Assembly (NCBI RefSeq): GCF_030373545.1
Contig: NZ_JAUDCO010000006.1
Coordinates: 1-64,000 of the forward strand
DNA: 64,000 nt
From: Collinsella tanakaei
Lineage (GTDB): Bacteria; Actinomycetota; Coriobacteriia; Coriobacteriales; Coriobacteriaceae
Reading direction: 5' to 3'
The position numbers and the translations under genes were made by a program. The first letter of the stretch is position 1; each line of letters begins with the position of its first letter. The notes beneath the pieces were generated by a model. The model was not told where the DNA came from and searched no databases. It was given only the letters and a program-made list of their open reading frames with translations. Shown here one piece after another: positions 45,404 to 63,668 of this stretch.

Positions 45404-46423
45404 ATGATCGCAATCCTTCGCAAGACCGCTTCGGATGAGGCTGTCGACCAGCTCGTTCGCTGGATCGAGAACAAAGGCCTGAAGACCGATGTGTCCCGCG
45501 GCGAAAACGAGATCGTCATCGGCTTGGTCGGAGACACCACCGTGATCGATCCGTTTCTTCTCGAATCGATGGATATCGTCGAGCGCGTCCAGCGCGTATC
45601 CGAGCCGTTCAAGAAAGCCAACCGCAAGTTCCACCCCGCAGACACCGTCGTCGACTGCGGCCACGGCGTGCTCATAGGCGGCGGGCATTTCCAAGTCATC
45701 GCCGGCCCCTGCTCGGTCGAGGGCGAAAACCTTGCCCCCATTGCGCGCCGCGTCCACGCCGCCGGCGCCACGATGCTGCGCGGCGGGGCCTACAAGCCGC
45801 GCACGTCGCCCTACGCATACCAGGGCATGGGCGAGCACGGTCTCGATATCCTGCTCGACGTGGCAGGCGAGCTCGACATGCCGGTCGTGACCGAGATCAT
45901 GGACCCGCGCGACGTCGGCCTGTTTTGCGACAAGGGCATCGACGTCATGCAGATCGGCGCCCGCAATGCCCAAAACTTCCCGCTGCTCAAAGAGGTCGGC
46001 AAGACCAACGTGCCCGTGCTGCTCAAGCGCGGCATGTCGGGCACGATCGACGAGCTGCTGATGGCTGCCGAGTACATCATGAGCGAGGGCAACCCCAACG
46101 TCATCCTGTGCGAACGCGGCATCCGCACGTTTGAGACGCGCACGCGCAACACGTTCGACCTCAACGCCGTGCCCGTGCTCCATCATCTGTCGCACCTGCC
46201 CGTCGTCGCCGACCCGAGCCACGCCACCGGCTACACGCGCTACGTGCAGCCCATGGCGCTCGCCGCCTGCGCCGCCGGTGCCGACGGCCTCGAGATCGAG
46301 GTGCACGATTGCCCCGAGCGCGCGTGGTCCGACGGTGCCCAGGCGCTCACGCCCGACCAATTCGACCGCACCATGGAGCGCATTCGCGCCATCCGCTCCG
46401 TGATCGCACCGGCGGATGAGTAG
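45404..46423 (+). CDS. aroF: DAHP synthase, type I-beta with ferredoxin-like N-terminal domain
   Basis: 339 aa. It condenses PEP and erythrose 4-phosphate, the entry step to aromatics. Residues 1-70 are the ferredoxin-like regulatory domain of Thermotoga-type enzymes, which binds Tyr or Phe for feedback control. The barrel has GPCSVE (101-106), GGAYKPRTSPYAYQG (127-141), IGARNAQNF and ADPSHATG. The ATG at 45404 has GGAAGGGA 5 bases upstream. First gene of the aro operon. Confidence 0.96.
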   Translation: MIAILRKTASDEAVDQLVRWIENKGLKTDVSRGENEIVIGLVGDTTVIDPFLLESMDIVERVQRVSEPFKKANRKFHPADTVVDCGHGVLIGGGHFQVIAGPCSVEGENLAPIARRVHAAGATMLRGGAYKPRTSPYAYQGMGEHGLDILLDVAGELDMPVVTEIMDPRDVGLFCDKGIDVMQIGARNAQNFPLLKEVGKTNVPVLLKRGMSGTIDELLMAAEYIMSEGNPNVILCERGIRTFETRTRNTFDLNAVPVLHHLSHLPVVADPSHATGYTRYVQPMALAACAAGADGLEIEVHDCPERAWSDGAQALTPDQFDRTMERIRAIRSVIAPADE

Positions 46424-47321
46424 CATGGGCGCGTCTGCCACCTCCCTGACGGTGGGAATCGTCGGACTCGGTCTCATAGGCGGGAGCTTTGCGCGGGGCT
46501 ACCGGGCCCACGGCGCCTGTGTGTATGCCTATGATCCCGACCAGGACACGATGGGCGCCGCGCGTATCGAGACCATTGCGGGAACGCTGGACGACGACAC
46601 GATTCCCGCATGCGACCTCATCGTGCTTGCCGCCTATCCGGACGCCTGCCTTGGCTGGCTGCGCGAGCATGCCAAGGTGCTTGGCGCCTGTTCGTCTGCG
46701 GACGAGAAGCGCGGACCTTTGGTCGTCGACACCGCGGGCGTCAAGACCGCGATCTGCTCCGAGGCGTTTCGACTGGCATTCGACTATGGTTTTTCCTTCC
46801 TGGGCGCCCATCCCATGGCCGGAACCGAGCACTCGGGATTCGCGCATGCGCGCGCCGACCTGTTCTGCGGAGCACCCATGGTCCTCACGCCCCCGCCGTG
46901 CGGCGACATGGATCGCCTCGAGCTGCTCGACCGCGCCCACACGCTGCTCGAACCGCTTGGATTCGGCAGCTACAGCGTCACGACCCCCGAGGCGCACGAC
47001 GAGGTGATCGCCTTTACCAGCCAGCTCGCCCACGTCGTCTCCAACGCGTACGTCAAGAGTCCGACTGCCCAGGTCCACCATGGGTTTTCAGCGGGCAGCT
47101 ATCGCGACCTGACGCGCGTCGCCCACCTGAACGCCTCCATGTGGGCCGAGCTCATGTGCGACGACGCGGAGAACCTGAGCCGCGAGATCGGATGGCTCAT
47201 AGATGCGCTGGCAGCCTACCGCGACGCGCTCGATGCAAACGATCGCGATCGCCTGCGCATGCTGCTTGCCGAGGGCGATCGCATCAAGCGCTCACTGGAC
47301 GACGGCGACATGAATGAGTAG
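46416..47321 (+). CDS. tyrA: Prephenate dehydrogenase
   Basis: 301 aa. It oxidises prephenate to 4-hydroxyphenylpyruvate for tyrosine. The Rossmann motif GLGLIGGS is at 17-24. The active-site segment HPMAGTEHSG (132-141) has the two His residues, followed by a C-terminal helical domain with TSQLAHVVSNAY. There is no ACT domain, so feedback probably acts elsewhere. The ATG at 46416 overlaps aroF by 8 bases; ATG 46425 is an alternative. Confidence 0.94.
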   Translation: MSSMGASATSLTVGIVGLGLIGGSFARGYRAHGACVYAYDPDQDTMGAARIETIAGTLDDDTIPACDLIVLAAYPDACLGWLREHAKVLGACSSADEKRGPLVVDTAGVKTAICSEAFRLAFDYGFSFLGAHPMAGTEHSGFAHARADLFCGAPMVLTPPPCGDMDRLELLDRAHTLLEPLGFGSYSVTTPEAHDEVIAFTSQLAHVVSNAYVKSPTAQVHHGFSAGSYRDLTRVAHLNASMWAELMCDDAENLSREIGWLIDALAAYRDALDANDRDRLRMLLAEGDRIKRSLDDGDMNE

Positions 47322-47335
47322 TCGGGAGGTACAGC

Positions 47336-48436
47336 GTGTATACCCTAGATATCGATACCGAACGTCCCTATCGTGTACTCATCGGCACGTTGCTGCTCGA
47401 GCAATGCGGCGAGATCGTGCGCGAAGCGAGCGGAGGCTCGCGCGCGCTCATCGTGACCGACACGAACGTCGGCGCGCTCTACGCGGCGCCCGTACGTCGC
47501 AGCCTCGAGGAGGCGGGCTACGAAACGAGCGTCCACGTCTTCGAGGCCGGCGAGGAGCACAAGCGGGCTGAGACCTACCTTGCCATACTTGAGGACGCGG
47601 CTCGTCATGAGATGACGCGCGGCGATGTCATCGTCGCCCTTGGCGGCGGCGTGGTCGGCGATGTCGCCGGCTTCGCTGCGGCGACCTACATGCGCGGCTG
47701 CCATTTCGTCCAGGTTCCCACGAGCCTGCTGGCCATGGTCGACTCGTCGGTCGGGGGAAAGACGGCGATCGATCTCGCTTGCGGCAAAAACCTTGTCGGC
47801 GCTTTCTGGCAGCCCGATGTCGTCATCGCCGACGTCGGGTGCCTGGCCACGCTTGAGCCCGACCAATTTATCGACGGGTGCGGAGAGGTCGTCAAGCACG
47901 CTGTCATCGCCGATGAGGAACTGTTCTGCGAGCTCGAGAAAACGCCGCTCACCCGGGAGCTCCTGCTCGCCGACCTCTCCCGCGTCGCGTACCTCATCGC
48001 GCGCAACATCGATATCAAGCGCGCCGTCGTCAGCGCCGACGAGCGGGAAGCGGGCGTACGGAAGCTGCTCAACTTTGGCCACAGCATCGGCCACGCCGTC
48101 GAAGCGTGCTCGGACTTTCGCCTCGGCCACGGCGCATGCGTGGCGATCGGCATGGTCGCCATGGCGACGGCATGCGTTCGCACCGGTCTTTGCGAACCTT
48201 CCGTGCGCGACCGAATCCGCGCGCTTGCAGCCGCACACGGACTTCCCACGAGCTGCGACTTCACCGCCGATGAGCTGTACGCCGCCGCCCTGCATGATAA
48301 AAAGCGCTCGGGGGACGCGATCGATCTCGTGCTACCCGAGGGCATCGGAACCTGCCGTATCGCAAACGTTCCGCTTCTGGAGTTCAAGCAGCTCATCGCA
48401 CTCGGTATCGAAACCGAAGGGAGCGTCGAGGCATGA
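47336..48436 (+). CDS. aroB: 3-dehydroquinate synthase
   Basis: 366 aa. It turns DAHP to 3-dehydroquinate with NAD and zinc. All key parts are visible: GGGVVGD (103-109), VDSSVGGKTAID (135-146), GCGEVVKH (181-188) with metal ligand Glu184, NFGHSIGH with His249, and LGHG with His265. The GTG start has GGGAGG 6 bases upstream. This is the intact AroB of the genome region; a degenerate relative lies at 60.3 kb. Confidence 0.97.
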   Translation: MYTLDIDTERPYRVLIGTLLLEQCGEIVREASGGSRALIVTDTNVGALYAAPVRRSLEEAGYETSVHVFEAGEEHKRAETYLAILEDAARHEMTRGDVIVALGGGVVGDVAGFAAATYMRGCHFVQVPTSLLAMVDSSVGGKTAIDLACGKNLVGAFWQPDVVIADVGCLATLEPDQFIDGCGEVVKHAVIADEELFCELEKTPLTRELLLADLSRVAYLIARNIDIKRAVVSADEREAGVRKLLNFGHSIGHAVEACSDFRLGHGACVAIGMVAMATACVRTGLCEPSVRDRIRALAAAHGLPTSCDFTADELYAAALHDKKRSGDAIDLVLPEGIGTCRIANVPLLEFKQLIALGIETEGSVEA

Positions 48437-49752
48437 TCGCGACCATTCACCCACGAGAACTTGCGGGATCCGTGCCCGCCATCGCGTCCAAGTCCATGGC
48501 GCATCGACTCATCATCGCCGCGGCGCTCTCGAGCTCGTCGACGCACGTCGTCTGCAACACGACGTGTGACGATATCGAGGCGACCATCCGCTGCCTGACC
48601 GCCCTGGGCGCGCGCATCGAGGCGACTGGCGACGGCTACGAGGTCCATCCGGTACCGAAGAGCATCGAGCTCGGCGTTCTCAAAGCGTTTCAGGGTGCCA
48701 CGCTCGACTGCGGAGAGTCGGGCAGCACGTTGCGCTTCATGCTGCCCGTCGCCTGCGCCCTGGGTGCGAATGCGTCCTTTACCGGTGCCGCGCGTCTCGC
48801 CGAACGGCCCCTCGGTCCGCTGGTTGACGAGCTTATCGCTGCGGGGTGCGATATCGCCGCCACCGGCGCGTTTCCGATGACCGCCGGAGGCCGTCTGCGT
48901 CCGGGCGTCTTCAAACTGCCCGGCACGGTAAGCTCTCAGTTCATCTCAGGTCTGCTCCTCGCCTTCCCGGTGCTTCCCGGCGCCTGCGAGATCGAGGTGT
49001 CCGGCCGCATCGAAAGCCGGCCCTACATCAATCTGACCCTTCAGGCGCTCAAGATGTTCGGCGTGGATGTCGCCGTCGAGCGCACGACCGCGCCCGACGG
49101 CATCACCGAGCTCACGCGATTCCGCTCGACGGGGCGCCCCTACCGTTCGCCGGGCGAGGTGCGCGTCGAGGGCGATTGGTCCAACGCCGCCTTCTGGCTG
49201 TGCGCCGGAGCCCTGGGCAGCGAGCCCATCGAGGTCAAGGGCGTATCGCTCACCTCCGCCCAAGGCGACCGCAACGTCCTCGCGGCGCTCTCGCGCTTCG
49301 GTGCGCGTACCCGCAGGACCGCCGAGTCGGCGATCGTGCAACCCGACGCCCTGCATGCGTTCTCGATGAGCGCACAGGATATCCCCGATCTTGTTCCGGT
49401 GATCGCCGCCGTGGCCGCCTGCTGCGAGGGGACGACGATCATCCGCGACTGCGCTCGGCTCCGCATCAAGGAGTCCGATCGCCTCGCGACGACCACCTCG
49501 GAGCTGCGGGCGCTCGGCGCGAACGTCTCCATCGACCGCGACAGCCTGGTCATCTGCGGCAAGCCGCGCTTGAGCGGCGGCGTCGTCGAGGCGCACAACG
49601 ACCATCGTATCGCGATGATGGCCGCCGTGGCCGCGGTTCGCTGCGACGACGACGTGGTCATACGCGGGGCGCAGGCGGTCGACAAATCGTATCCGACCTT
49701 TTTTGAGCACTACCGCATGCTCGGCGGTGACGTCGAGCTCTCCCAGGATTAG
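48433..49752 (+). CDS. aroA: EPSP synthase (3-phosphoshikimate 1-carboxyvinyltransferase)
   Basis: 439 aa two-domain inside-out barrel. Substrate-binding residues appear in SKSMAHRL (Lys and Ser near 16-17), the glycine-rich CGESGSTLRFMLP, ERPLGPL and SSQFISGLL. Catalytic Asp and His/Arg occur in the DIPDLVP, RIKESDR and DHRIAMMAAV segments. The ATG overlaps the aroB stop (ATGA). Confidence 0.97.
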   Translation: MIATIHPRELAGSVPAIASKSMAHRLIIAAALSSSSTHVVCNTTCDDIEATIRCLTALGARIEATGDGYEVHPVPKSIELGVLKAFQGATLDCGESGSTLRFMLPVACALGANASFTGAARLAERPLGPLVDELIAAGCDIAATGAFPMTAGGRLRPGVFKLPGTVSSQFISGLLLAFPVLPGACEIEVSGRIESRPYINLTLQALKMFGVDVAVERTTAPDGITELTRFRSTGRPYRSPGEVRVEGDWSNAAFWLCAGALGSEPIEVKGVSLTSAQGDRNVLAALSRFGARTRRTAESAIVQPDALHAFSMSAQDIPDLVPVIAAVAACCEGTTIIRDCARLRIKESDRLATTTSELRALGANVSIDRDSLVICGKPRLSGGVVEAHNDHRIAMMAAVAAVRCDDDVVIRGAQAVDKSYPTFFEHYRMLGGDVELSQD

Positions 49753-49761
49753 GAGGGTCCC

Positions 49762-50895
49762 ATGGCATCGGTGTTCGGCAACGCCCTGAAGCTCTCGATC
49801 TTCGGCCAGTCACACTCCCCCGCCATCGGTTTTACGCTCGACGGGGTGCCCGCCGGCATCCCGGTTGACACCGAGCGTCTCCAGGCGTTCATGGATCGGC
49901 GCGCGCCCGGCCGGGCTCGGACCTCCACCGCACGCCGCGAAGCCGATGCCCCTGAGTTTTTGGGAGGCCTCACCGACGGCCACACCAACGGCGCGCCGCT
50001 CGCCGCCATTATCCGCAACGGAGATGCGCGTTCGCACGACTATGACGAGCTCAGACGCATCCCGCGCCCGGGCCATGCCGACCTGCCGGCACGTATCAAG
50101 TACCGCAACAACCATGACGTCGCGGGTGGCGGCCACTTCTCCGGCCGTCTTACCGCCGCGCTGTGCGCAGCGGGCGGCGTGGCGCTCCAAGCTCTCGAGA
50201 GCCGTGGCATCCACATCGTCGCCCACATCGCCTCGCTCGGTCCTAAGCCCATCACCGACATGCCGCTCGATGCGATGGCATACAATCCCGCCCAAGCGAC
50301 GCTCATCGGCGCCAACAAGCTCCCCTGCATCAGTTCAGATGCCGCCGAGCGCATGCAGGCGTGCATCCTTGACGCCGCCGAAAAGCTCGACAGCGTGGGC
50401 GGCGTCATCGAGTGCGCGGCCTATGGCATGCCCGCCGGTATCGGAGACCCCATGTTCGACGGTATCGAGAACCGCATCGCACACATCGCATTCGGTATCC
50501 CCGCCGTCAAGGGCGTCGAGTTCGGCACCGGCTTCGCCGCCGCCCGCCTGCGGGGCAGCGAGAACAACGACCCGTATCGCATGGGGTCCGACGGCGCGCA
50601 CCCGGTGTCCAATCACGCTGGAGGCATCCTCGGCGGCATCACCGATGGGGCGCCGGTGGTCTGGCGCATGGCCATAAAGCCCACGCCCTCGATTGCCCAG
50701 TCGCAACGAAGCGTCGACCTTGACGCGGGCATCGATGCCGACCTATCCGTACGCGGACGGCACGACCCGTGCATCGTCGCGCGCGCCGTACCGGTCGCCG
50801 AGGCGGCCTGTGCGCTCGCACTCATGGATGCCCTGGTGGAAGATGAGGGCCAACGTGCCTTCGGCACCTCAGCGGAGCCGTACGACGCGTTGTAG
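49762..50895 (+). CDS. aroC: Chorismate synthase
   Basis: 377 aa FMN-dependent enzyme making chorismate from EPSP. Signatures are FGQSHSPAIG near the start, the RTSTARREADAPEFLGG loop, YDELRRIPRPGHADL, GGGHFSGRLTA and, late, the Arg/His-rich HDPCIVARAVPVAEA. The ATG at 49762 has AGGAGG 4-5 bases upstream, 9 bases after aroA. Confidence 0.97.
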   Translation: MASVFGNALKLSIFGQSHSPAIGFTLDGVPAGIPVDTERLQAFMDRRAPGRARTSTARREADAPEFLGGLTDGHTNGAPLAAIIRNGDARSHDYDELRRIPRPGHADLPARIKYRNNHDVAGGGHFSGRLTAALCAAGGVALQALESRGIHIVAHIASLGPKPITDMPLDAMAYNPAQATLIGANKLPCISSDAAERMQACILDAAEKLDSVGGVIECAAYGMPAGIGDPMFDGIENRIAHIAFGIPAVKGVEFGTGFAAARLRGSENNDPYRMGSDGAHPVSNHAGGILGGITDGAPVVWRMAIKPTPSIAQSQRSVDLDAGIDADLSVRGRHDPCIVARAVPVAEAACALALMDALVEDEGQRAFGTSAEPYDAL

Positions 50896-50931
50896 AGACG
50901 TCGCTTCTCGCCCGAGCACAAAGGAGACCCC

Positions 50932-52074
50932 ATGGACCTGACCGATATCCGCACACGCATCGATCGCATCGACGACGAGCTGCTCGAGCGTTTCGTTGAT
51001 CGCATGGAGATCGCGACCGAGGTCGCCCGCTCCAAAAAGGAGACGGGAAAGGCGGTCTTCGATCCGGCACGCGAGCGCGATAAGCTCGCTGCGGTCGCCG
51101 CACAGGCGCCCGAGCGTTTCCGCGACCAGGCGGTCAGCCTGTTCTCGCTGCTCATGAGCATGAACAAAGCCGAGCAGCTCCGCGTGCTGCACGGAAGCAA
51201 CCCATCCGATGCCGCCGGCGCCGTCAGGCGCGAGCTCGACGCACCGCGAGCCGCGTTTCCTCGCTCCGCGCGCATCGCCTGCCAGGGCGTCGAGGGGGCG
51301 TACAGCCAGATTGCAGCGTGTCGCCTCTTCAGGCTCCCCACGATCACCTACTGCAATACGTTCGAGGACGTCTTCCGCGCCGTCCGCGACGGCGCATGCG
51401 ACTACGGCGTCGTCCCCATCGAGAACTCGACGGCGGGATCGGTCAACGCGGTATACGACCTGCTCGCTGCCTACTCGTGCTCCATCGTCAAATCGCTGCG
51501 GCAAAAGATCGACCATCAGCTGCTGGCCAAGCCCGGATCGTCCCTCGACGACATCCGGGAGGTGTACTCGCACGAGCAGGCGGTCGCCCAATGCTCGGGT
51601 TTTCTTGCCGAGCTCGGCGCGCACGTCAACGTCTTCGATAACACCGCAATGGCCGCGGAGTTCGTGGCCTCGTCTGACCGTCGCGATGTCGCCGCGCTCT
51701 CCTCGCGCGACTGCGCGAAACTCTACGGGCTCGATGTCCTCGCATCGGACGTCCAGGATTCGGACAGCAACTACACGCGGTTCGTCGTCATAGCGCCACA
51801 GCTCGAGATCTACCCGGGCGCGATGCGCACCTCGCTCATGCTCACGCTTCCCCACGAGCCCGGAGCTCTCTACCGCGTGCTCGAACGGCTCTACGCGCTC
51901 GATGTCAACATGGTGAAGCTCGAGAGCAGACCGATCGTGGGACGTGACTTCGAGTTCACGTTCTACTTCGATCTTGAGTGCGCGGCCGATGAGCGGCTCA
52001 TCGGCCTGCTCAACGCGCTCGATGACGTATGCGAGCATCTGAGATATTTCGGATCATATACGGAGGTGCTCTAA
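50932..52074 (+). CDS. pheA: Bifunctional chorismate mutase / prephenate dehydratase
   Basis: 380 aa. The N-terminal AroQ-type chorismate mutase covers 1-90 (IDRIDDELLERFVDRM). Prephenate dehydratase runs from about 112 to 288 with GAYS (122-125), ENSTAGS (164-170) and YTRFVVI including TRF 282-284. The ACT regulatory domain at 298-375 has GALYRVL and the Phe-binding ESRP (331-334), so phenylalanine feedback is expected. It joins directly to the next gene with no gap. Confidence 0.96.
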   Translation: MDLTDIRTRIDRIDDELLERFVDRMEIATEVARSKKETGKAVFDPARERDKLAAVAAQAPERFRDQAVSLFSLLMSMNKAEQLRVLHGSNPSDAAGAVRRELDAPRAAFPRSARIACQGVEGAYSQIAACRLFRLPTITYCNTFEDVFRAVRDGACDYGVVPIENSTAGSVNAVYDLLAAYSCSIVKSLRQKIDHQLLAKPGSSLDDIREVYSHEQAVAQCSGFLAELGAHVNVFDNTAMAAEFVASSDRRDVAALSSRDCAKLYGLDVLASDVQDSDSNYTRFVVIAPQLEIYPGAMRTSLMLTLPHEPGALYRVLERLYALDVNMVKLESRPIVGRDFEFTFYFDLECAADERLIGLLNALDDVCEHLRYFGSYTEVL

Positions 52075-53337
52075 ATGGAGCAGACGCGACCCTACGGCGT
52101 ACTGGGCGAGAAACTCGGCCACAGCTATACGCCGGTTATCTACCGTGAGCTCGCGGGCTTGAACTACGTGAAATTCGAACGGGAGCCCGATCAGCTCGAA
52201 GCATTCCTGCGCGGAAACGAATGGGAGGGCGTGAACGTCACGATTCCCTACAAGAAAGCCGTTCTTCCCTATCTGGACGAGCTTTCCGACATCGCGCGCC
52301 GCATGGGCAACGTCAACACGGTGACCCGACTGGCAGACGGACGGCTTCGGGGCGACAACACCGACTACTTCGGTTTCAAGTTCCTGCTCGAATCGACCGG
52401 TGTCGATTACACCGACGCGCTCGTGCTCGTCCTGGGCGGTGACGGCGGCGCCGGGTCGACCGCCCTCAAGGTGCTCGCCGACCTGGGAGCACAGGCGGTC
52501 TCGGTCAATCGCGGCGGAGAGGTCACCTACGCGGACCTTGCACGCTATGCGCAGGCCGATGCCATCGTAAACTGCACGCCGGTCGGCATGTTTCCGGCCT
52601 GTCCGGCGACACCGTGCTCGCTCGACGGCTTCGAGAACCTCAAAGCCGTGGTCGACATCGTCTATAACCCCGCGCGCACCCAGATCATGATGGACGCGGA
52701 GCGTCGCGGCATCCCGACAGCCGGAGGTCTGCTGATGCTCGTCGCTCAGGCCGCGCAGGCGGTTGAGCGCTACACGGGACGGGTCCTTTCGGCCGCGCGC
52801 ATCCATGAGGTATGCGACGCCCTGCTTGCGACCGAGCAGAATATCGCGCTCATCGGCATGCCCGGCTCCGGGAAGACGTGCGTCGGCCAACAGCTCGCAG
52901 GGTTGCTGGGCCGCGAGCACATCGATATCGACCACGAGCTCGAGCTACGCCTCGGCTGCACGTGCGCGACGTTCATCGAGCAGCACGGAGAGCAGGCCTT
53001 CCGCGAGCGCGAGACCGCATGCCTGCGCGACATCGCCGGCCGCTCGCGTCTGGTCATCTCCAGCGGCGGCGGCGTGGTGACACGGCAGGAGAACTATGAC
53101 CTGCTCCATCAGAACAGCCGCATCGTCATGCTCAACCGCCCGCTCGAAGAGCTCTCCCGGAAGAACCGCCCCATAACCGCGCGCGACGGCATCGAGCGCC
53201 TTGCGACCGAGCGCATGCCCCGCTACCGCGCCTGGGCGGACGACATCGTCGATTCGCGGGAGCACGCGAAGGCGACGGCGCTCGCGGTGCGCGCCCTGCT
53301 GCCCCCTATGCTCGAGATGCCGGTCGCCGACGCGTAA
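52075..53337 (+). CDS. Shikimate dehydrogenase-shikimate kinase fusion
   Basis: 420 aa. AroE occupies about 1-255: HSYTP for shikimate binding, catalytic Lys60 (NVTIPYK) and Asp97 (DNTDYFG), cofactor loop GGDGGAGST (121-129) and CTPVGM. AroK occupies about 256-415: P-loop GMPGSGKT (261-268), Asp284/Asp286, Arg310 (AFRERE), GGG 331-333, RPIT lid and RYRAWAD near 383. It does two consecutive steps, dehydroshikimate to shikimate 3-phosphate. The ATG directly follows the pheA stop, with GGAGGT 7 bases before it in pheA. The fusion is continuous with no frameshift. Confidence 0.93.
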   Translation: MEQTRPYGVLGEKLGHSYTPVIYRELAGLNYVKFEREPDQLEAFLRGNEWEGVNVTIPYKKAVLPYLDELSDIARRMGNVNTVTRLADGRLRGDNTDYFGFKFLLESTGVDYTDALVLVLGGDGGAGSTALKVLADLGAQAVSVNRGGEVTYADLARYAQADAIVNCTPVGMFPACPATPCSLDGFENLKAVVDIVYNPARTQIMMDAERRGIPTAGGLLMLVAQAAQAVERYTGRVLSAARIHEVCDALLATEQNIALIGMPGSGKTCVGQQLAGLLGREHIDIDHELELRLGCTCATFIEQHGEQAFRERETACLRDIAGRSRLVISSGGGVVTRQENYDLLHQNSRIVMLNRPLEELSRKNRPITARDGIERLATERMPRYRAWADDIVDSREHAKATALAVRALLPPMLEMPVADA

Positions 53338-53360
53338 GACCCGCGCTTGAAAGGAGCCCC

Positions 53361-53804
53361 ATGAAGGCATTGGTTATCAACGGCCCGAACCTCAATATGC
53401 TCGGGCAGCGAGAACCGGATATCTACGGGCGCAGGACCTATGACGACCTCGTCCAAATCTGCCAGGATGCCGGTCGCCGCGCCGGATTCGACGAGGTCGA
53501 GGTCTTCCAATCCAACCACGAGGGCGCTCTCGTGGATGCGATTCAGGGCGCATGGGGCACCGCCGACGGCATCGTCATCAATCCGGCGGCGTACACGCAC
53601 ACCAGCGTGGCGATCCTTGACGCTCTGAAGGCCGTGGGGCTGCCCGCCATCGAGGTTCACATCTCCGCGGTCGAGCAGCGTGAGGACTTTCGTCAGATTT
53701 CCTACGCACGCATGGCGTGCATGGCGACGATCACCGGAGAAGGGCTGGATGGCTACGCCCACGCGCTCGAGCTGCTGGCAACGCATCTGAAGGACGCGAA
53801 GTAG
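53361..53804 (+). CDS. aroQ: 3-dehydroquinate dehydratase, type II
   Basis: 147 aa dodecamer-type enzyme. It starts with LVINGPNLNMLGQREPDIYG (the loop Arg and Tyr are present), then NPAAYTHTS with the catalytic-region Asn and His, EVHIS with His, and EDFRQISY with the substrate Arg. The residue after HIS is Ala where most family members have Asn. The ATG has AAAGGAG 4 bases upstream. Last gene of the aro operon; it converges with recN, and only 28 bases separate the stops. Confidence 0.95.
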   Translation: MKALVINGPNLNMLGQREPDIYGRRTYDDLVQICQDAGRRAGFDEVEVFQSNHEGALVDAIQGAWGTADGIVINPAAYTHTSVAILDALKAVGLPAIEVHISAVEQREDFRQISYARMACMATITGEGLDGYAHALELLATHLKDAK

Positions 53805-58431: not shown

Positions 58432-58995
58432 CTACACGCGGGAGACGAACTTGCCGTCGCGCGTATCCACCTTGATGGTCTCGCCCACGTTGAGATACAT
58501 GGGGACCTGGATGGTGGCGCCGGTCTCGATGACCGCGGGCTTCGTGCCGCCCTGGACGGTGTCGCCCTTGAAGCCGGGATCGGTCTCGGTGATCTCGACC
58601 TCGATGAACATGGGGGGATTGACGCCCATGAGCTCGTCGTCGGCGTACAGCAGCTGGCAGACGTCGTTCTCCTTGAGCCACTTCTCGTTGTCGCCGATGA
58701 AGTCGGCGGGAACCGCGACCTGGTCGTAGGTCTCCATGTTCATGAAGTAGTAGTTGTCACCATCGTTGTACAGATACTGCATCTCGGTGGTGGTGAGGGT
58801 CACGCTCTCGAACTTGGAGCCCGCGTTGCAGGTCTGCTCGACGACGCGACCGGTCTTGATGTCCTTGGTCTTGTAGCGGACGAACGCGCCACCCTTGCCG
58901 GGCTTGACGTGCTGGAACTCAACGATGGTGCAGACCTTGTCCTTGATGCGCAGACCGAGGCCGTTCTTGAAATCAGCGGTGGTGATGGATGCCAT
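58432..58995 (-). CDS. efp: Elongation factor P
   Basis: 187 aa, three beta-barrel domains. The first-domain tip reads KPGKGGAF (residues 31-38), with the Lys that is modified or left bare in different clades. The third domain has DPGFKGDTVQGGTKPA and ends KVDTRDGKFVSRV. It rescues polyproline stalling. ATG 58995 with AAAGG upstream. A TATACT -10 lies about 40 bases upstream. Confidence 0.97.
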   Translation of the reverse strand: MASITTADFKNGLGLRIKDKVCTIVEFQHVKPGKGGAFVRYKTKDIKTGRVVEQTCNAGSKFESVTLTTTEMQYLYNDGDNYYFMNMETYDQVAVPADFIGDNEKWLKENDVCQLLYADDELMGVNPPMFIEVEITETDPGFKGDTVQGGTKPAVIETGATIQVPMYLNVGETIKVDTRDGKFVSRV

Positions 58996-59103: not shown

Positions 59104-60234
59104 CTAGCAGTCGATAACCTGCAGCTCGTGCGGAGACGAGGTGAAGGGCATATAGCCGTCCTCGGTGACCACGCCGTAGTCCTCGAGGCGGACGCCGCCC
59201 ACCCCAGGCAGATACACGCCGGGCTCGACCGTCACGACCGAACCGGCTTCGACGATATTGCTCGCGCGGCCGAAGTTGGGCAGCTCGTGGATGTCGATGC
59301 CGACCCCGTGTCCGAGTCCGTGGCCGTAGTAGTCGCCGTACCCCGCATCCGAGATGATCTTCACGGACAGCATATGGATATCATGCCCGTCGACGCCCGC
59401 GTGGATGGCGCGCACGCACTCCTCGTGCGTGTGCTGGACCAGGTCGTACAGGGCGCGCTGCTCGGCGGTCGGCTCGCCCATGACGACGGTACGGGTCATA
59501 TCCGAATCGTAGTCGCGATAGCGCGCGCCGTAGTCCATGAGGACGAAATCGCCCTTCTGGACCACGCGATCGCTGGGGATGGCATGCGGGTTGGCGGTGT
59601 TGGGACCGGAGGCGACGATGGAATCGAAGGCAAGGCCGTCGGCGCCGTTGTCGAGCATGAAGCTCTCGAGCTCGACCCTGATCTGCTTCTCGGTCATGCC
59701 GGGCTTGATGAAGCCGAGCATGTGGGCGAAGGCAGCGTCGGTGATGGCCTGGGCATGGCGCATGAGCTCGATCTCCTCATCGTCCTTGACGGCGCGCATG
59801 CGACGAAGGTCGCCGTGCATCAGCGGAAGCTGGCAGACGATGGAGCGATCCTCGAGCCCGCGAACGATGCCCTGGTAGAAGGACAGCTGCATGTCGTCCT
59901 CGATCGCGACGACGCGACAGCGGCACGCAAGCGCGCGCTCGGCTACCCAACCCGGGATGTCATGGCCGTCCATATCGAGCTGCCAGGTGTGCCCTTCGGG
60001 AAGGTTCTCGGTAAAGCTGTTGAAATAACGCGAATCGGTATGCAGGAAGCACGCGTCGCGCGTGATAAACGCGGCGTGGGGGAACTCATAGGTGTAGTCG
60101 AACACGCCCATGGCGCCGGTGAGCCAGCGAAGGTTCGCTTCGTCGCGCACGACGACGGCGTCGTAGCCGCGCTCCTCCATCATTGCCCTCACGCGCTCGA
60201 TACGGGCGGCGGGACCCGAAACGATTTCAGCCAT
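59104..60234 (-). CDS. M24 family Xaa-Pro aminopeptidase
   Basis: 376 aa. A creatinase-like N-terminal domain (1-150) leads to a pita-bread metal domain with ligands Asp234, Asp245 ([16 protein letters not shown]), His309 (GHGLGHGVG), Glu337 (TVEPG) and Glu351 (RLEDYG). It frees N-terminal residues before proline in the cytoplasm. The pepP-efp adjacency is conserved widely. ATG 60234, 73 bases after the AroB-like gene. Confidence 0.93.
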
Positions 60235-60307: not shown

Positions 60308-61408
60308 CTAATCGTCCTCGGTTTGGGATCTCGACGCAAGATAGGCCTCAGCGTGGCGCATGAGCAGGTCGTCGTCGATGTTGGCGAGACGAATCGAGCC
60401 AGCGAACCGCGGAAGCGCAAGCATGAATCGATTCGAGCGACGATAGCGCTCGCGCTTCAGGGCCTCCACGAAGCGATCGGCCGAAAGCTCGAAGGTCAGC
60501 TCCTCGACGCCAAGGTCCTCGAACAGATCATCTTGGTCGAAGACGACGTCGACATCAAGGCCGCAGACATCGTGCGCAAGGCGCGCCTCAAACCGCATGC
60601 CCTCGGCGAGCAGGCGATACCACGGAAACGAGGCGTCAAGGCACGAACGCAGAGCGCGGGCGGTGGCGACACCGTATTCGACCGCATGGCGCGACGAGGG
60701 ATTCGCAGAGCGTATGGACATGCTGCGGGCGGTCTGCGCACGGCAGAGCGCATCGGCAAAGGCCCGTTCCTGACCGGCGACCATGCCCTCGGCAAGACCG
60801 GGGAACTGCTCCCACGCGCGCTTGCTCTCGGCAAGCGCACACGAGAGCAACTCGACGTAGCCGGGACCAAGCGTCTCGGGGTCCCTGCCGATGACGAGGT
60901 CGAGCTCGCAGACGACCATGTCCCAGCGCGGCTGCACCGAGATCATCTCGGACGCCTCGCCGTATCCGAGCGGGGCCATGGAGGTGGCGACCCGCGCCAT
61001 CGCATCGAGGGTGAGCGGAATGGCGACGCTCGAGACGCCCTGGCACCACATACCCGAGCAGAACGCGACGGCCGAGCACAGCTCATAGCCGCCGACCGCG
61101 ACGACCAGGTCGTCAGCCGTCAAGGCGCTGCGCTCGAACTCGGCAAACAGTAAGACGGCGTCCTCTACGCGAGAAAGCCGCGCGGAAGCGCACGTGCACG
61201 TGAAAACCTGGAAGCCGGTGTCGATAAGCGCGCGCTCCACCTCGACGCGAATCGCCTCGTCGACGGGGTCCTCGAGAACCATGAGAGCGCGCTTGGGCGC
61301 TCCGACGACATGGGTGAGCAGACGCGGAAGCTCGGCAAAAGCGCCGCACCCGATCCGAAAATCGGTCGTTGTGCGACCGAAGTTGACGAGCTGGCGACGG
61401 ACGGTCAT
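60308..61408 (-). CDS. AroB-like protein with degenerate active site
   Basis: 366 aa, the same length as AroB at 47.3 kb, and alignable along the fold by eye. NAD loop GGGVVGD becomes GGYELCS (106-112). The GGKTAID region becomes ATSMAPLGYG (141-150). Metal-ligand positions Glu184, His249 and His265 of AroB correspond to Tyr184, Pro237 and Trp263, so dehydroquinate synthase activity is unlikely. HAVE (241-244) and EGM (269-271) remain as anchors. The reading frame is open with normal codon use, so it is a maintained gene, not wreckage. Its ATG overlaps the shikimate-kinase-like gene (ATGA). It could be a pseudoenzyme or a new activity. Confidence 0.75.
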   Translation of the reverse strand: MTVRRQLVNFGRTTTDFRIGCGAFAELPRLLTHVVGAPKRALMVLEDPVDEAIRVEVERALIDTGFQVFTCTCASARLSRVEDAVLLFAEFERSALTADDLVVAVGGYELCSAVAFCSGMWCQGVSSVAIPLTLDAMARVATSMAPLGYGEASEMISVQPRWDMVVCELDLVIGRDPETLGPGYVELLSCALAESKRAWEQFPGLAEGMVAGQERAFADALCRAQTARSMSIRSANPSSRHAVEYGVATARALRSCLDASFPWYRLLAEGMRFEARLAHDVCGLDVDVVFDQDDLFEDLGVEELTFELSADRFVEALKRERYRRSNRFMLALPRFAGSIRLANIDDDLLMRHAEAYLASRSQTEDD

Positions 61409-61938
61409 AGCAAACCACACTCCAAAAGCATCTCGGCGCAATCGTAGGAAACGTCGGTAAAGCCGCGGCCGCGGATATCGACGGTGAAATCAGCTGCCTG
61501 AAGGTACAGGGGGCGACGGTGCTCGAGCAGCTCGACGGCGTGGGACTCCGATTTGAAATCGGGCCGCGTGTCACGCCGCCTGATCTGGCGCAGGGAGTCA
61601 TCGATATCGCCATCGAGGTAGACACAGTAGCCCATCTCGTGCATGAGCTCGATGTTGCACGGCGTCTCGACGATGCCGCCGCCGCAAGACACGAGCAGGC
61701 TGCGCTCTGAGCGCAGCGAGCGCAGCGCGTCGGTCTCCAGCACCCGGAAGGCGTGCTCGCCCCGCGTGGCGAAGATCTTCGTCACCGATTGGCCGCAGCA
61801 GCGCTCGACCATGCGATCGGTATCGACATAGCGCCTGTTGAACATCTTACCGAGATTGCGCGCGAGCGTTGACTTGCCCGCACCGAGAAACCCGATGAAG
61901 AAGATGTGGTCGCATCCCCGCTTGTCGCAGCACGCCAT
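61405..61938 (-). CDS. Stand-alone shikimate kinase-like protein
   Basis: 177 aa. P-loop GFLGAGKST (16-24), shikimate-binding Asp39 and Asp41 (VDTDR), Arg65 (AFRVLE), GGG 86-88, the lid Arg125 region and RRPLY (141-145) are all present, so it may be an active kinase. The N terminus MACCDKRGCD is Cys-rich. It duplicates the AroK half of the fusion at 52-53 kb. It is coupled to the degenerate AroB-like protein, the ancestral aroK-aroB order of many bacteria. A changed substrate is possible. Confidence 0.82.
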   Translation of the reverse strand: MACCDKRGCDHIFFIGFLGAGKSTLARNLGKMFNRRYVDTDRMVERCCGQSVTKIFATRGEHAFRVLETDALRSLRSERSLLVSCGGGIVETPCNIELMHEMGYCVYLDGDIDDSLRQIRRRDTRPDFKSESHAVELLEHRRPLYLQAADFTVDIRGRGFTDVSYDCAEMLLECGLL

Positions 61939-61941
61939 CGC

Positions 61942-62442
61942 CTAGCGCTCCTCGCAAGGAACGCCGCGCAGCGCGAGCCGCTCGAAGATACGGAAGATCT
62001 TGGTGTACCACAAATCGACGGTGGTCTGAGGCTTGACGAGGATGGTGTCGACCCCTGCAAGTTTGCCGGCCCACACGTCGGTGTAGAGCTGGTCTCCGAT
62101 GAGCACGGCCGCCTCGTGCGGCTGCCCCATGCGCTTGAGCGCGGCATCGATAGCAAAAGGAAACGGCTTGCAGGCAAAGCAGATGGCACCGAGCCCGAGC
62201 TCGCCGGCAGAGCGCTCCACTTGGTCGCGGTGCCAGTTGTTGGAAACCATGTACAGCGAGAATCCGAGCTCTCGGGCATGGTCGAGCCATGCCGCGACCT
62301 CAGAGGGCGCCGTCGTGCGATCGCGTGGGACGAGCGTGTTATCGCGGTCGAGCATGATGGCGCGCTTGCCGGATGCGTAGAGCTCCTCGAGATCGATGAT
62401 GTCAACGGAAGCGACGTAGCGTCCAGGGGAAAGGATACTCAT
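61942..62442 (-). CDS. YqeG-type HAD phosphatase (HAD-IIIA)
   Basis: 166 aa. DRDNTLV (32-38) gives nucleophile Asp32 and Asp34, VSNN is motif II, Lys in CKPFPF is motif III and IGDQLYTDVWAG is motif IV. There is no cap domain. YqeG proteins in Firmicutes sit beside aroE or yqeH and nadD genes; their substrate is uncertain. Here it lies before the AroK-like gene and overlaps the mltG stop (ATGA). Confidence 0.88.
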   Translation of the reverse strand: MSILSPGRYVASVDIIDLEELYASGKRAIMLDRDNTLVPRDRTTAPSEVAAWLDHARELGFSLYMVSNNWHRDQVERSAGELGLGAICFACKPFPFAIDAALKRMGQPHEAAVLIGDQLYTDVWAGKLAGVDTILVKPQTTVDLWYTKIFRIFERLALRGVPCEER

Positions 62443-63668
62443 TGCAGCGACTCCCCGTACTCCTGGCTGAACTGCTCGAATTCCGCATAGTCATCGGTGA
62501 ACCGGTGCGTGCCATCCCCCGCCGCCGAGGCGACGTAATACAGGTAGTCAGTATCGTCAGGGGCGAGCGCCGCCTGGATCGACGAGAGGCTCGGGCTGCA
62601 GATGGGTCCGGGCGTCAGACCGTAGTTCTTGTAGACGTTGTAGGGCGAGTCGATCTCGAGGTCGTCATAGGTGACCGGATCGCTGCCGCCGCCGCGCGCG
62701 TACACGATCGCCGCATCGATCTGCAGGGGCATATCGATATCGAGTCGATTGTAGATGACACTCGCCACGGTCGGGCGCTCATCGTCGACCGCGGTCTCGC
62801 GCTCGACGAGCGAGGCCACCGTGATCACCTGCTGCGCGCTCAGGCCCGCCGGACCGGCGTCCAGATCGAGCGAGGCGGTCTCGGTAACGAACTGGTCGAG
62901 TAGGGCGCGAATGACCGAATCGGCGGTCGGATCGCTGATCGAATAGGTCTTGGGATACAGATAGCCCTCAAGCGAATCGTTGTACGCGCCCTCGAGGAAC
63001 GGATAGTCATCGACATAGTTGGACGCCTTCGCCTGCTCCAGGAACTCATCGGCGGAGATGCCGTAGGTCTCCTCGACGCGGGCGGCCGTCTGAGCGACCG
63101 TGAGGCCTTCCTGGATCACAAGCGAGGTGCCGGCGTTGGGACCGGCAACAAGCCGCTCGACGACCTCAGCGGGATCCTGCCCGGTATACAGCAGGTATTC
63201 GCCGGGCTTGATGGACGTCTCGGCGCCGGCGGCCGTAACCGCAGCGTAGTAGTCCTTCGGGTTGTCGATGACATGATGTTCCGCCATGAGCTGGGCGATC
63301 GCATCGCCCGACGCTCCCTCGGGAATCGTTAGGCGAACCTCCTGGCCCGCCTCGACCGCAGGGGTGTCGTCAACGAACATGCCGCGCACGGCGGGAACGA
63401 TGTAGCAGACGATGAGGGCGATGGCGACCAGCGCGACGACGGCGCCGATGATGCCGCCAACCGGAATGCCGCCCTGTCGCTGCGAGGTGCGGCGATGCGC
63501 GGAGGCAGCGGGCCTTCCCGACGAATAGCTCGACGGCCGGTAGGACTGCACGCCCGCCGCAGGGGTGCGGCGGTTGTCGGCGAAACGCTTGCCCGCCGGT
63601 CGAGCGGAGCGCGCAGTGGGGCGAGCAGCGGAGCTTCGCCTCGGATCGTTGTTCATCGTGTTAGGCAC
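62439..63668 (-). CDS. mltG: Endolytic murein transglycosylase MltG
   Basis: 409 aa. A basic disordered cytoplasmic stretch (1-65) and a membrane helix (69-92) precede a LysM-like region and the YceG domain with catalytic Glu289 in ASLVERET. Late segments include YDDLEIDSPYNVYKNYGLTPGPI and YYVAS. It cuts nascent glycan strands near the membrane and works with the elongation and division synthases. The GTG at 63668 is preferred over ATG 63656 because GAAAGGA lies 5 bases upstream; it overlaps ruvX by 8 bases. Confidence 0.92.
   Translation of the reverse strand: MPNTMNNDPRRSSAARPTARSARPAGKRFADNRRTPAAGVQSYRPSSYSSGRPAASAHRRTSQRQGGIPVGGIIGAVVALVAIALIVCYIVPAVRGMFVDDTPAVEAGQEVRLTIPEGASGDAIAQLMAEHHVIDNPKDYYAAVTAAGAETSIKPGEYLLYTGQDPAEVVERLVAGPNAGTSLVIQEGLTVAQTAARVEETYGISADEFLEQAKASNYVDDYPFLEGAYNDSLEGYLYPKTYSISDPTADSVIRALLDQFVTETASLDLDAGPAGLSAQQVITVASLVERETAVDDERPTVASVIYNRLDIDMPLQIDAAIVYARGGGSDPVTYDDLEIDSPYNVYKNYGLTPGPICSPSLSSIQAALAPDDTDYLYYVASAAGDGTHRFTDDYAEFEQFSQEYGESLQ

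Follow-up and report, generated by a model that had tools for sequence, protein, structure and literature searches.

Members of the shikimate kinase family have been described in roles other than chorismate synthesis. Plant SKL1 and SKL2 are shikimate kinase duplicates with changed function whose ATP-site residues are under purifying selection, and SKL1 has lost the RPLL motif altogether and carries extra motifs, according to the portions of PMC2593004 drawn on here; the same portions discuss a second activity of E. coli AroK, a further precedent for other roles. A homoserine kinase of D. vulgaris belongs to the AroK family and acts on another substrate, with a separate true shikimate kinase present (excerpts of PMC5764234). 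In fungi, the QutR and GaaX repressors contain shikimate-pathway domains that are thought to be catalytically dead and to bind ligand, as stated in the available parts of PMC10512348 and PMC6528562. Among the open-access matches listed, we found no paper recognisably on the pair of proteins described below or on a bacterial AroB pseudoenzyme.

We analysed a stretch of 64,000 nucleotides of Collinsella tanakaei DNA, hereafter the window, in which a shikimate-kinase-family protein (SKL) and an AroB-fold protein (ABL) are encoded within the minus-strand gene order mltG, yqeG, SKL, ABL, pepP, efp (Table 1). Elsewhere in the window, at 45404-53804, lies the complete operon aroF-tyrA-aroB-aroA-aroC-pheA-aroEK-aroQ. 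A preceding sequence-only reading had described the pair as a degenerate AroB coupled to an intact kinase and released from the pathway by this operon; the coordinates that it gave, the protein lengths of 366 and 177 aa, the uninterrupted frames and the gene overlap are all correct, and a complete operon able to run the pathway is indeed present in the window. The stop of SKL and the start of ABL share 4 bases (ATGA, GTGA or TTGA) in 65 of the 66 other loci with both genes identified, and these overlapping genes are presumably co-translated. Our preferred reading, to which we give a probability of about one half, is that SKL would be a kinase that acts on a new substrate, and ABL an AroB-fold protein that binds a ligand without catalysis. 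Three things are new here: 1) the change in the kinase pocket; 2) the retention of the pair in genomes without the pathway; and 3) the mutual independence of ABL and SKL. Families are given below by code: f1 is the window's family and f5 its sister family, which we take to be Atopobiaceae, and f2 is presumably Eggerthellaceae.

Table 1. Features of the SKL-ABL locus and of the replacing operon in the window
Feature	Position	Strand	Remark
ABL, AroB-fold protein, 366 aa	60308..61408	-	without metal, NAD and most catalytic DHQS residues
SKL, shikimate-kinase-family protein, 177 aa	61405..61938	-	P-loop kept, lid changed
ATGA stop-start overlap of SKL and ABL, 4 bases	61405..61408	-	
YqeG family HAD phosphatase, conserved neighbour	61942..62442	-	
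mltG, endolytic transglycosylase, conserved neighbour	62439..63527	-	longest ORF extends to 63941, start uncertain
pepP/M24 peptidase, conserved neighbour directly after ABL	59104..60234	-	
efp, elongation factor P, conserved neighbour	58432..58995	-	
aroF, DAHP synthase, replacing operon	45404..46423	+	
tyrA, prephenate dehydrogenase	46416..47321	+	
canonical aroB	47336..48436	+	catalytic residues kept
aroA, EPSP synthase	48433..49752	+	
aroC, chorismate synthase	49762..50895	+	
pheA, chorismate mutase/prephenate dehydratase	50932..52074	+	
aroE-aroK fusion (AroEK)	52075..53337	+	standard shikimate-kinase domain, lid RPI
aroQ, type II dehydroquinase	53361..53804	+	

Synteny was compared across 40 fetched loci. 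Half of them (families f2, f4, f6, f7 and f9) have a canonical AroB, which lies beside aroC in 20/20; a kinase was detected in 19 of these, 16 have mltG and yqeG upstream, and 16 have pepP downstream in the same orientation; some neighbours are missing because a contig ends. The other 20 comprised loci of the operon, loci that have ABL or SKL and lack a canonical AroB, and other places. Relatives of the window's genome have intact aroC-aroK-aroB at the same locus, and a profile of ABL gave 221 bits for the canonical AroB of G081, the one ancestral-locus version that this search included, and 56-105 bits for operon AroBs. In an unrooted AroB tree, one branch (100/98) sets apart all 26 ABLs and a second one (100/99) all 22 operon AroBs, G071 and G240 forming long ABL branches of unsure placement; in a kinase tree, likewise unrooted, 19 SKLs group together (100/99) among ancestral-locus kinases, apart from AroEK. 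Synteny and trees thus support the view, already put forward in the sequence-only reading, that the pair probably represents the ancestral locus, and they also support its release by the operon. SKL and ABL would be the vertically inherited aroK-aroB of a locus of the form mltG-yqeG-aroE-aroC-aroK-aroB-pepP-efp; in the presumed order of events, chorismate synthesis passed to a complete aro operon containing an AroE-AroK fusion, and both genes were then freed.

ABL is genuinely homologous to AroB, though only distantly, and has the fold of dehydroquinate synthase (DHQS). It scored 39 bits against TIGR01357 (E 5e-10), short of the cut-off of 305 bits, and is 21% identical to the window's AroB over 321 columns; its closest named relative, from an uncultured Collinsella, is 96% identical. 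Structure prediction, which had been proposed as a check, gave a model of moderate confidence (pLDDT 69, pTM 0.67, five-sequence alignment) whose best structure matches are DHQS (3okf: Z 26.7, rmsd 4.8, 325 residues), with a Foldseek match to DHQS at E 5e-15. The metal ligands of DHQS are Glu-His-His, and a substrate Arg is among its active-site residues. We scored 13 active-site positions in an alignment of 70 sequences that included 26 ABLs and 42 canonical AroBs, 22 of the latter from operons and 20 from the ancestral locus. Canonical AroBs keep 11-13 of the 13 residues and ABLs 0-4. Glu184, His249, His265, Lys142, Lys151, Asn152, Lys187, Asn246, His253, Arg120 and Arg242 are each kept in 42/42 canonical AroBs, and Lys322 and Lys323 in 41/42. 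Among the 26 ABLs, His249, His265 and Lys323 are kept in none, Asn152, Lys187, Arg120 and Lys322 in one each, Lys142, Lys151, Asn246 and His253 in two each, and Glu184 in three. All three metal ligands are present in 42/42 canonical AroBs, and at least two of the three in 0/26 ABLs; the GGG and Asp of the NAD loop are likewise found in 42/42 and 0/26.

At the metal-ligand positions the window's ABL has Glu186, Val247 and Trp263. The sequence-only reading had named Tyr184, Pro237 and Trp263; the 70-sequence alignment upholds Trp263, at His265, and replaces the other two with Glu186 and Val247. The alignment bears out the change of the NAD loop from the canonical GGGVVGD to GGYELCS. Conservation of the changed residues was found for the metal histidines, lost in 26/26, and was incomplete at the first ligand position, where three of the 26 still have Glu. 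The statement that every functional site is altered goes slightly too far: Arg240, the equivalent of Arg242, is kept in 23/26 ABLs and, with Glu186, makes up the 2 of 13 active-site residues that the window's ABL retains. We take Arg242 to lie on the substrate side in DHQS structures. Other residues conserved in ABL divide between old and new: Arg240, Gly246 and Gly270 are common to 42/42 canonical AroBs, and Arg228 and Arg327 occur in 0/42, Trp121 in 2/42 and Arg340 in 4/42. The arginines at 18, 228, 272, 276, 327 and 340 are invariant or near-invariant among ABLs. We infer that ABL retains an anion pocket; dehydroquinate synthase activity appears very unlikely.

Conservation within the order, which had been suggested as a test, proved extensive. 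As a divergent AroB with at least 40% identity to the query P0001, ABL occurs in 64/65 f1 genomes, the exception being G037, a genome 72% complete. It also occurs in 90/91 f5 genomes, 89 by P0001 (E 4.3e-27 or better; a hand count of matches, of which those fetched were aligned) and G240 by profile; G150 (f5, 98% complete) has lost both ABL and SKL and kept the pathway. In G046 ABL is split, which we treated as an assembly fault because the scaffold has an N gap and repeated neighbour fragments. There are no internal stops in the f1 ABL matches. The stops flagged in 13 f5 matches, and three flagged in the profile search, all lie at the C-terminal end and are therefore terminal stops, not frameshifts. 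For six Collinsella loci (15 pairs, summed; Nei-Gojobori), dN/dS was 0.098 for ABL, 0.038 for SKL, 0.042 for yqeG and 0.013 for pepP; for ABL it was 0.103 between the window and L035 and 0.26 between the window and L038, which is more distant, with dS near 1. ABL is the fastest evolving among the genes compared at the locus, and its long-term rate, from quick trees, is about 1.5 times that of PepP. A ratio of about 0.10 among close relatives agrees with the earlier suggestion of selection rather than decay. As far as sequence can tell, these data establish that ABL is under purifying selection and is not decaying. The possibility of a pseudogene was considered and is ruled out by dN/dS, open frames and distribution.

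As a separate observation, ABL and PepP of G053 are encoded in a single open frame of 734 aa (L060:6885-9089), which may be a natural fusion or a sequencing indel; in L065, from a genus mate of G053, they are separate genes.

Purifying selection on ABL might also reflect catalysis. ABL might still be an enzyme, using a new chemistry that is free of NAD and metal and working with SKL in a new small-molecule pathway; the near-invariance of Arg228, Arg240, Glu269, Arg272, Arg276, Asp293, Arg327 and Arg340 and the kinase residues retained by SKL would suit such a role. We find this doubtful, however, since only the Arg242 equivalent is generally kept of the 13 old active-site residues, ABL has evolved about 1.5 times as fast as PepP, and, among the ORFs in the query set, no pathway gene other than the ancestral neighbours was seen to accompany the pair in the displayed loci.

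Membership of SKL in the Pfam family PF01202 is clear (122 bits, cut-off 22). The P-loop Lys22 and the equivalents of the shikimate-binding Asp34, Arg58 and Arg136 and of the catalytic lid Arg117 are each found in 69/69 SKL sequences, and the window's SKL retains the P-loop, Asp41, Arg65, Arg125 and Arg141. The kinase had been regarded as simply intact and of shikimate type, which does not hold for the lid: at the shikimate pocket the lid residue is Asp in 68/69 sequences, RPL(L/F) having become RPD(F/L), and in the window the motif is RPDF, with Asp127. In M. tuberculosis SK the shikimate pocket is lined by Pro118, Leu119 and Gly79-81, as given in the part of PMC7144000 available, and we mapped this Leu119 to Asp127 of SKL through the RPLL motif. 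All 34 kinases that lie beside an intact AroB (19) or in AroEK (15) have GGG and a hydrophobic lid residue. The ancestral-locus kinases without an intact AroB have RPD in f1, f5 and f3, GDG in f8 (G071), GEG in genus g42 of f2 (2/2 examined), RPY in g35 (2/2) and KPL in G067 of f4, a pattern that comprises few independent events and was found after the fact. G158 (L088) is an exception, with the kinase motif intact and no intact AroB; its kinase may still serve the pathway, as the only aroC match of that genome adjoins it. SKL matched 29 NCBIfam models and reached the cut-off of none of the 25 listed, a weak argument alone because the window's AroEK also falls below its listed kinase-model cut-offs; against NF040667, the model for SK-type homoserine kinase, SKL scored 84.1 bits, short of the cut-off of 197. 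The comparison of motifs thus demonstrates a changed pocket at the level of residues. The lid Asp could mean that substrate binding in SKL was lost and not changed, and we infer that the substrate of SKL is probably other than shikimate.

Two genera of f2 were also found to carry altered shikimate-pathway genes at the ancestral locus. In g42, an aroC-like gene lacks both catalytic-histidine motifs, GESHG and RPGHAD, in the two loci examined (L106:6816-7943 in G155 and L109:6999-8162 in G116). It adjoins the aroK in which GGG has become GEG, there is no aroB at the locus, and two aroC matches occur in 10/11 g42 genomes. This AroC is a second retired shikimate enzyme retained beside AroK. In g35, the ancestral-locus AroB is degenerate, with 0/13 active-site residues in 2/2 sequences (L089:5932-7050 in G100 and L138:6053-7171 in G211); a canonical AroB is encoded elsewhere, and the AroK lid is RPYL. 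A single origin of this AroB and ABL would be compatible with the AroB tree, and the g35 kinase groups with f2 kinases in the kinase tree.

Genomes that appear to have no chorismate pathway bear on what the pair serves. An aroC match was absent in 19 of 297 genomes of the order, 13 of which are under 90% complete; from the remaining six we followed G056 (99% complete, one contig), G071 (94%), G036 (95%, 90 contigs) and G240 (94%, 1.0 Mb), leaving out G077 and G247. None of the four has an aroC match, or an aroA or canonical aroB above the cut-offs; the aroA search gave one match of 68-82 bits in each, taken as MurA, and G036 gave a further partial aroB match of 20 bits. ABL is present in all four and SKL in G056, G071 and G036; SKL was not found in G240, in a search of the locus only. 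In G036, given its completeness and 90 contigs, the operon could sit in an assembly gap. ABL keeps 26 of 27 signature residues in G056, 18 in G071 and 13 in G240, and this erosion makes slow decay of ABL possible in the latter two. The retention of the pair in genomes where aroA, aroB and aroC were not found agrees with the proposed release from the pathway and, judged by gene content, shows that the pair is independent of chorismate synthesis.

Each partner also occurs alone. In whole-genome searches, SKL was not found in G276 (89% complete) and G230 (95%), which gave only an AroEK-type kinase, and ABL there keeps 27/27 and 24/27 signature residues, respectively. The ABL/PepP path ratios of G276, G230 and G240 (1.47, 1.52 and 1.41) are ordinary for a set that ranges from 1.09 to 2.24 over 24 rows and lies mostly at 1.3-1.7 (quick trees); coupled decay, that is, faster evolution of ABL without SKL, was thus not seen. 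Conversely, in f3 (G066 and G074) SKL lies directly before pepP and no ABL was found by profile. The pair is not obligate, since ABL persists where SKL was not found (G276, G230 and, at the locus, G240) and SKL without ABL (f3), and this argues against ABL as a mere subunit of SKL. The earlier proposal of an allosteric partner of the kinase is weakened from both sides, by an ABL that is conserved and unchanged in rate relative to pepP where SKL was not found, and by the f3 kinase without ABL.

We also noted an ORF between yqeG and ABL, in the place of SKL, in G276 (L040:7431-7937) and G240 (L135:7916-8449), which we read from its sequence as a prepilin-peptidase-like membrane protein.

The same genomes bear on a reading in which SKL simply serves as an additional, ordinary shikimate kinase and ABL is its pseudoenzyme partner, devoted to helping or inhibiting flux through the shikimate pathway. 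SKL does retain the Arg and Asp residues that bind the shikimate carboxylate, and the genes overlap in 65/66 loci, but the Asp in the lid pocket, the retention of the pair where aroA, aroB and aroC were not found, and the full 27/27 signature of G276, with no SKL found there, make this reading unlikely.

A known kinase step could instead have been taken over. A standard ThrB is encoded in the window's genome (243 bits against a cut-off of 168), so homoserine kinase is not needed from SKL there, and SKL as a homoserine kinase by need is ruled out for this genome. No ThrB above the cut-off was found in G056, G071, G066, G081 and G230 (sub-cut-off or no match). That SKL has come to perform a different known kinase step, on an amino acid or a polyol, with ABL as a hitch-hiker, would accord with the D. 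vulgaris precedent (excerpts of PMC5764234), with the acidic pocket residue in three kinase lineages and with the presence of SKL in G056, G071 and G066, which have no ThrB above the cut-off; it is nevertheless quite improbable in view of the NF040667 score (84 bits, cut-off 197) and of the dN/dS of ABL, which speaks against a hitch-hiker. Least credible, and already contradicted, is a decaying ABL kept open only because pepP-efp expression needs translation through the operon: ABL is the fastest evolving of the compared locus genes, but its dN/dS is about 0.10, it has no internal stops and its invariant residues span two families.

On the preferred reading, AroB would have become ABL, with the same fold, by losing the ability to bind Zn and NAD together with almost every catalytic residue, and ABL would bind a phosphorylated or carboxylated small molecule without turnover, as a sensor or scaffold. 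AroK would have become SKL, an active-looking P-loop kinase with the lid Leu changed to Asp in the shikimate pocket, which may phosphorylate a different substrate, perhaps one whose amino group faces Asp127. SKL and ABL may form a physical complex but need not, because each occurs without the other; this mutual independence makes an allosteric partner less likely and favours two new functions that are linked but can be separated. A more tentative extension is that in Coriobacteriia the ancestral-locus aroK would repeatedly have given rise to kinases for another, possibly common substrate, and that a set of dead shikimate enzymes would serve a pathway-independent metabolic or signalling module. 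It is based on the lineages examined: those that have lost the aroB of this locus or carry a dead one, and that either possess another shikimate kinase or no longer have the pathway, show a changed pocket or lid. Retired neighbours are retained as AroB in f1, f5, f8 and g35 and as AroC in g42, and would be kept as non-catalytic proteins.

The locus presents a natural experiment: a whole set of enzymes of a central pathway gave way to new ones, and two of the old copies stayed on, apparently in a new role, in two families. Common gut bacteria offer here a candidate small-molecule kinase and a putative pseudoenzyme with the AroB fold. There is a warning for annotation as well: genes named 'aroK' and 'aroB' at an mltG-pepP-efp locus are probably not chorismate enzymes, and these names would mask the apparent aromatic auxotrophy of G056, G071 and G036.

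Set against the known systems, ABL resembles AroB (TIGR01357, PF01761/PF24621) in fold, length, locus and descent and differs from it in being without metal, NAD and nearly all catalytic residues (39 versus 305 bits). SKL has in common with AroK (PF01202) the P-loop and the equivalents of Asp34, Arg58, Arg117 and Arg136, whereas the AroK lid RPL(L/F) is RPD(F/L) in 68/69 SKLs. Compared with plant SKL1, as portrayed in the portions of PMC2593004 drawn on, the catalytic lid Arg is retained here, the change falls on the Leu of the pocket, and the adjacent aroB is altered as well. QutR and GaaX, in the parts of their descriptions available, are multi-domain repressors that act on a zinc-cluster activator, whereas two separate proteins are found here; there is no DNA-binding domain among the Pfam matches of SKL or ABL, and neither has the QutR/GaaX combination of SK, dehydratase and shikimate dehydrogenase in one chain. 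Unlike the D. vulgaris system, the window's genome has ThrB, and SKL misses the NF040667 cut-off. The SKL-ABL case would belong with neofunctionalised, non-catalytic paralogues.
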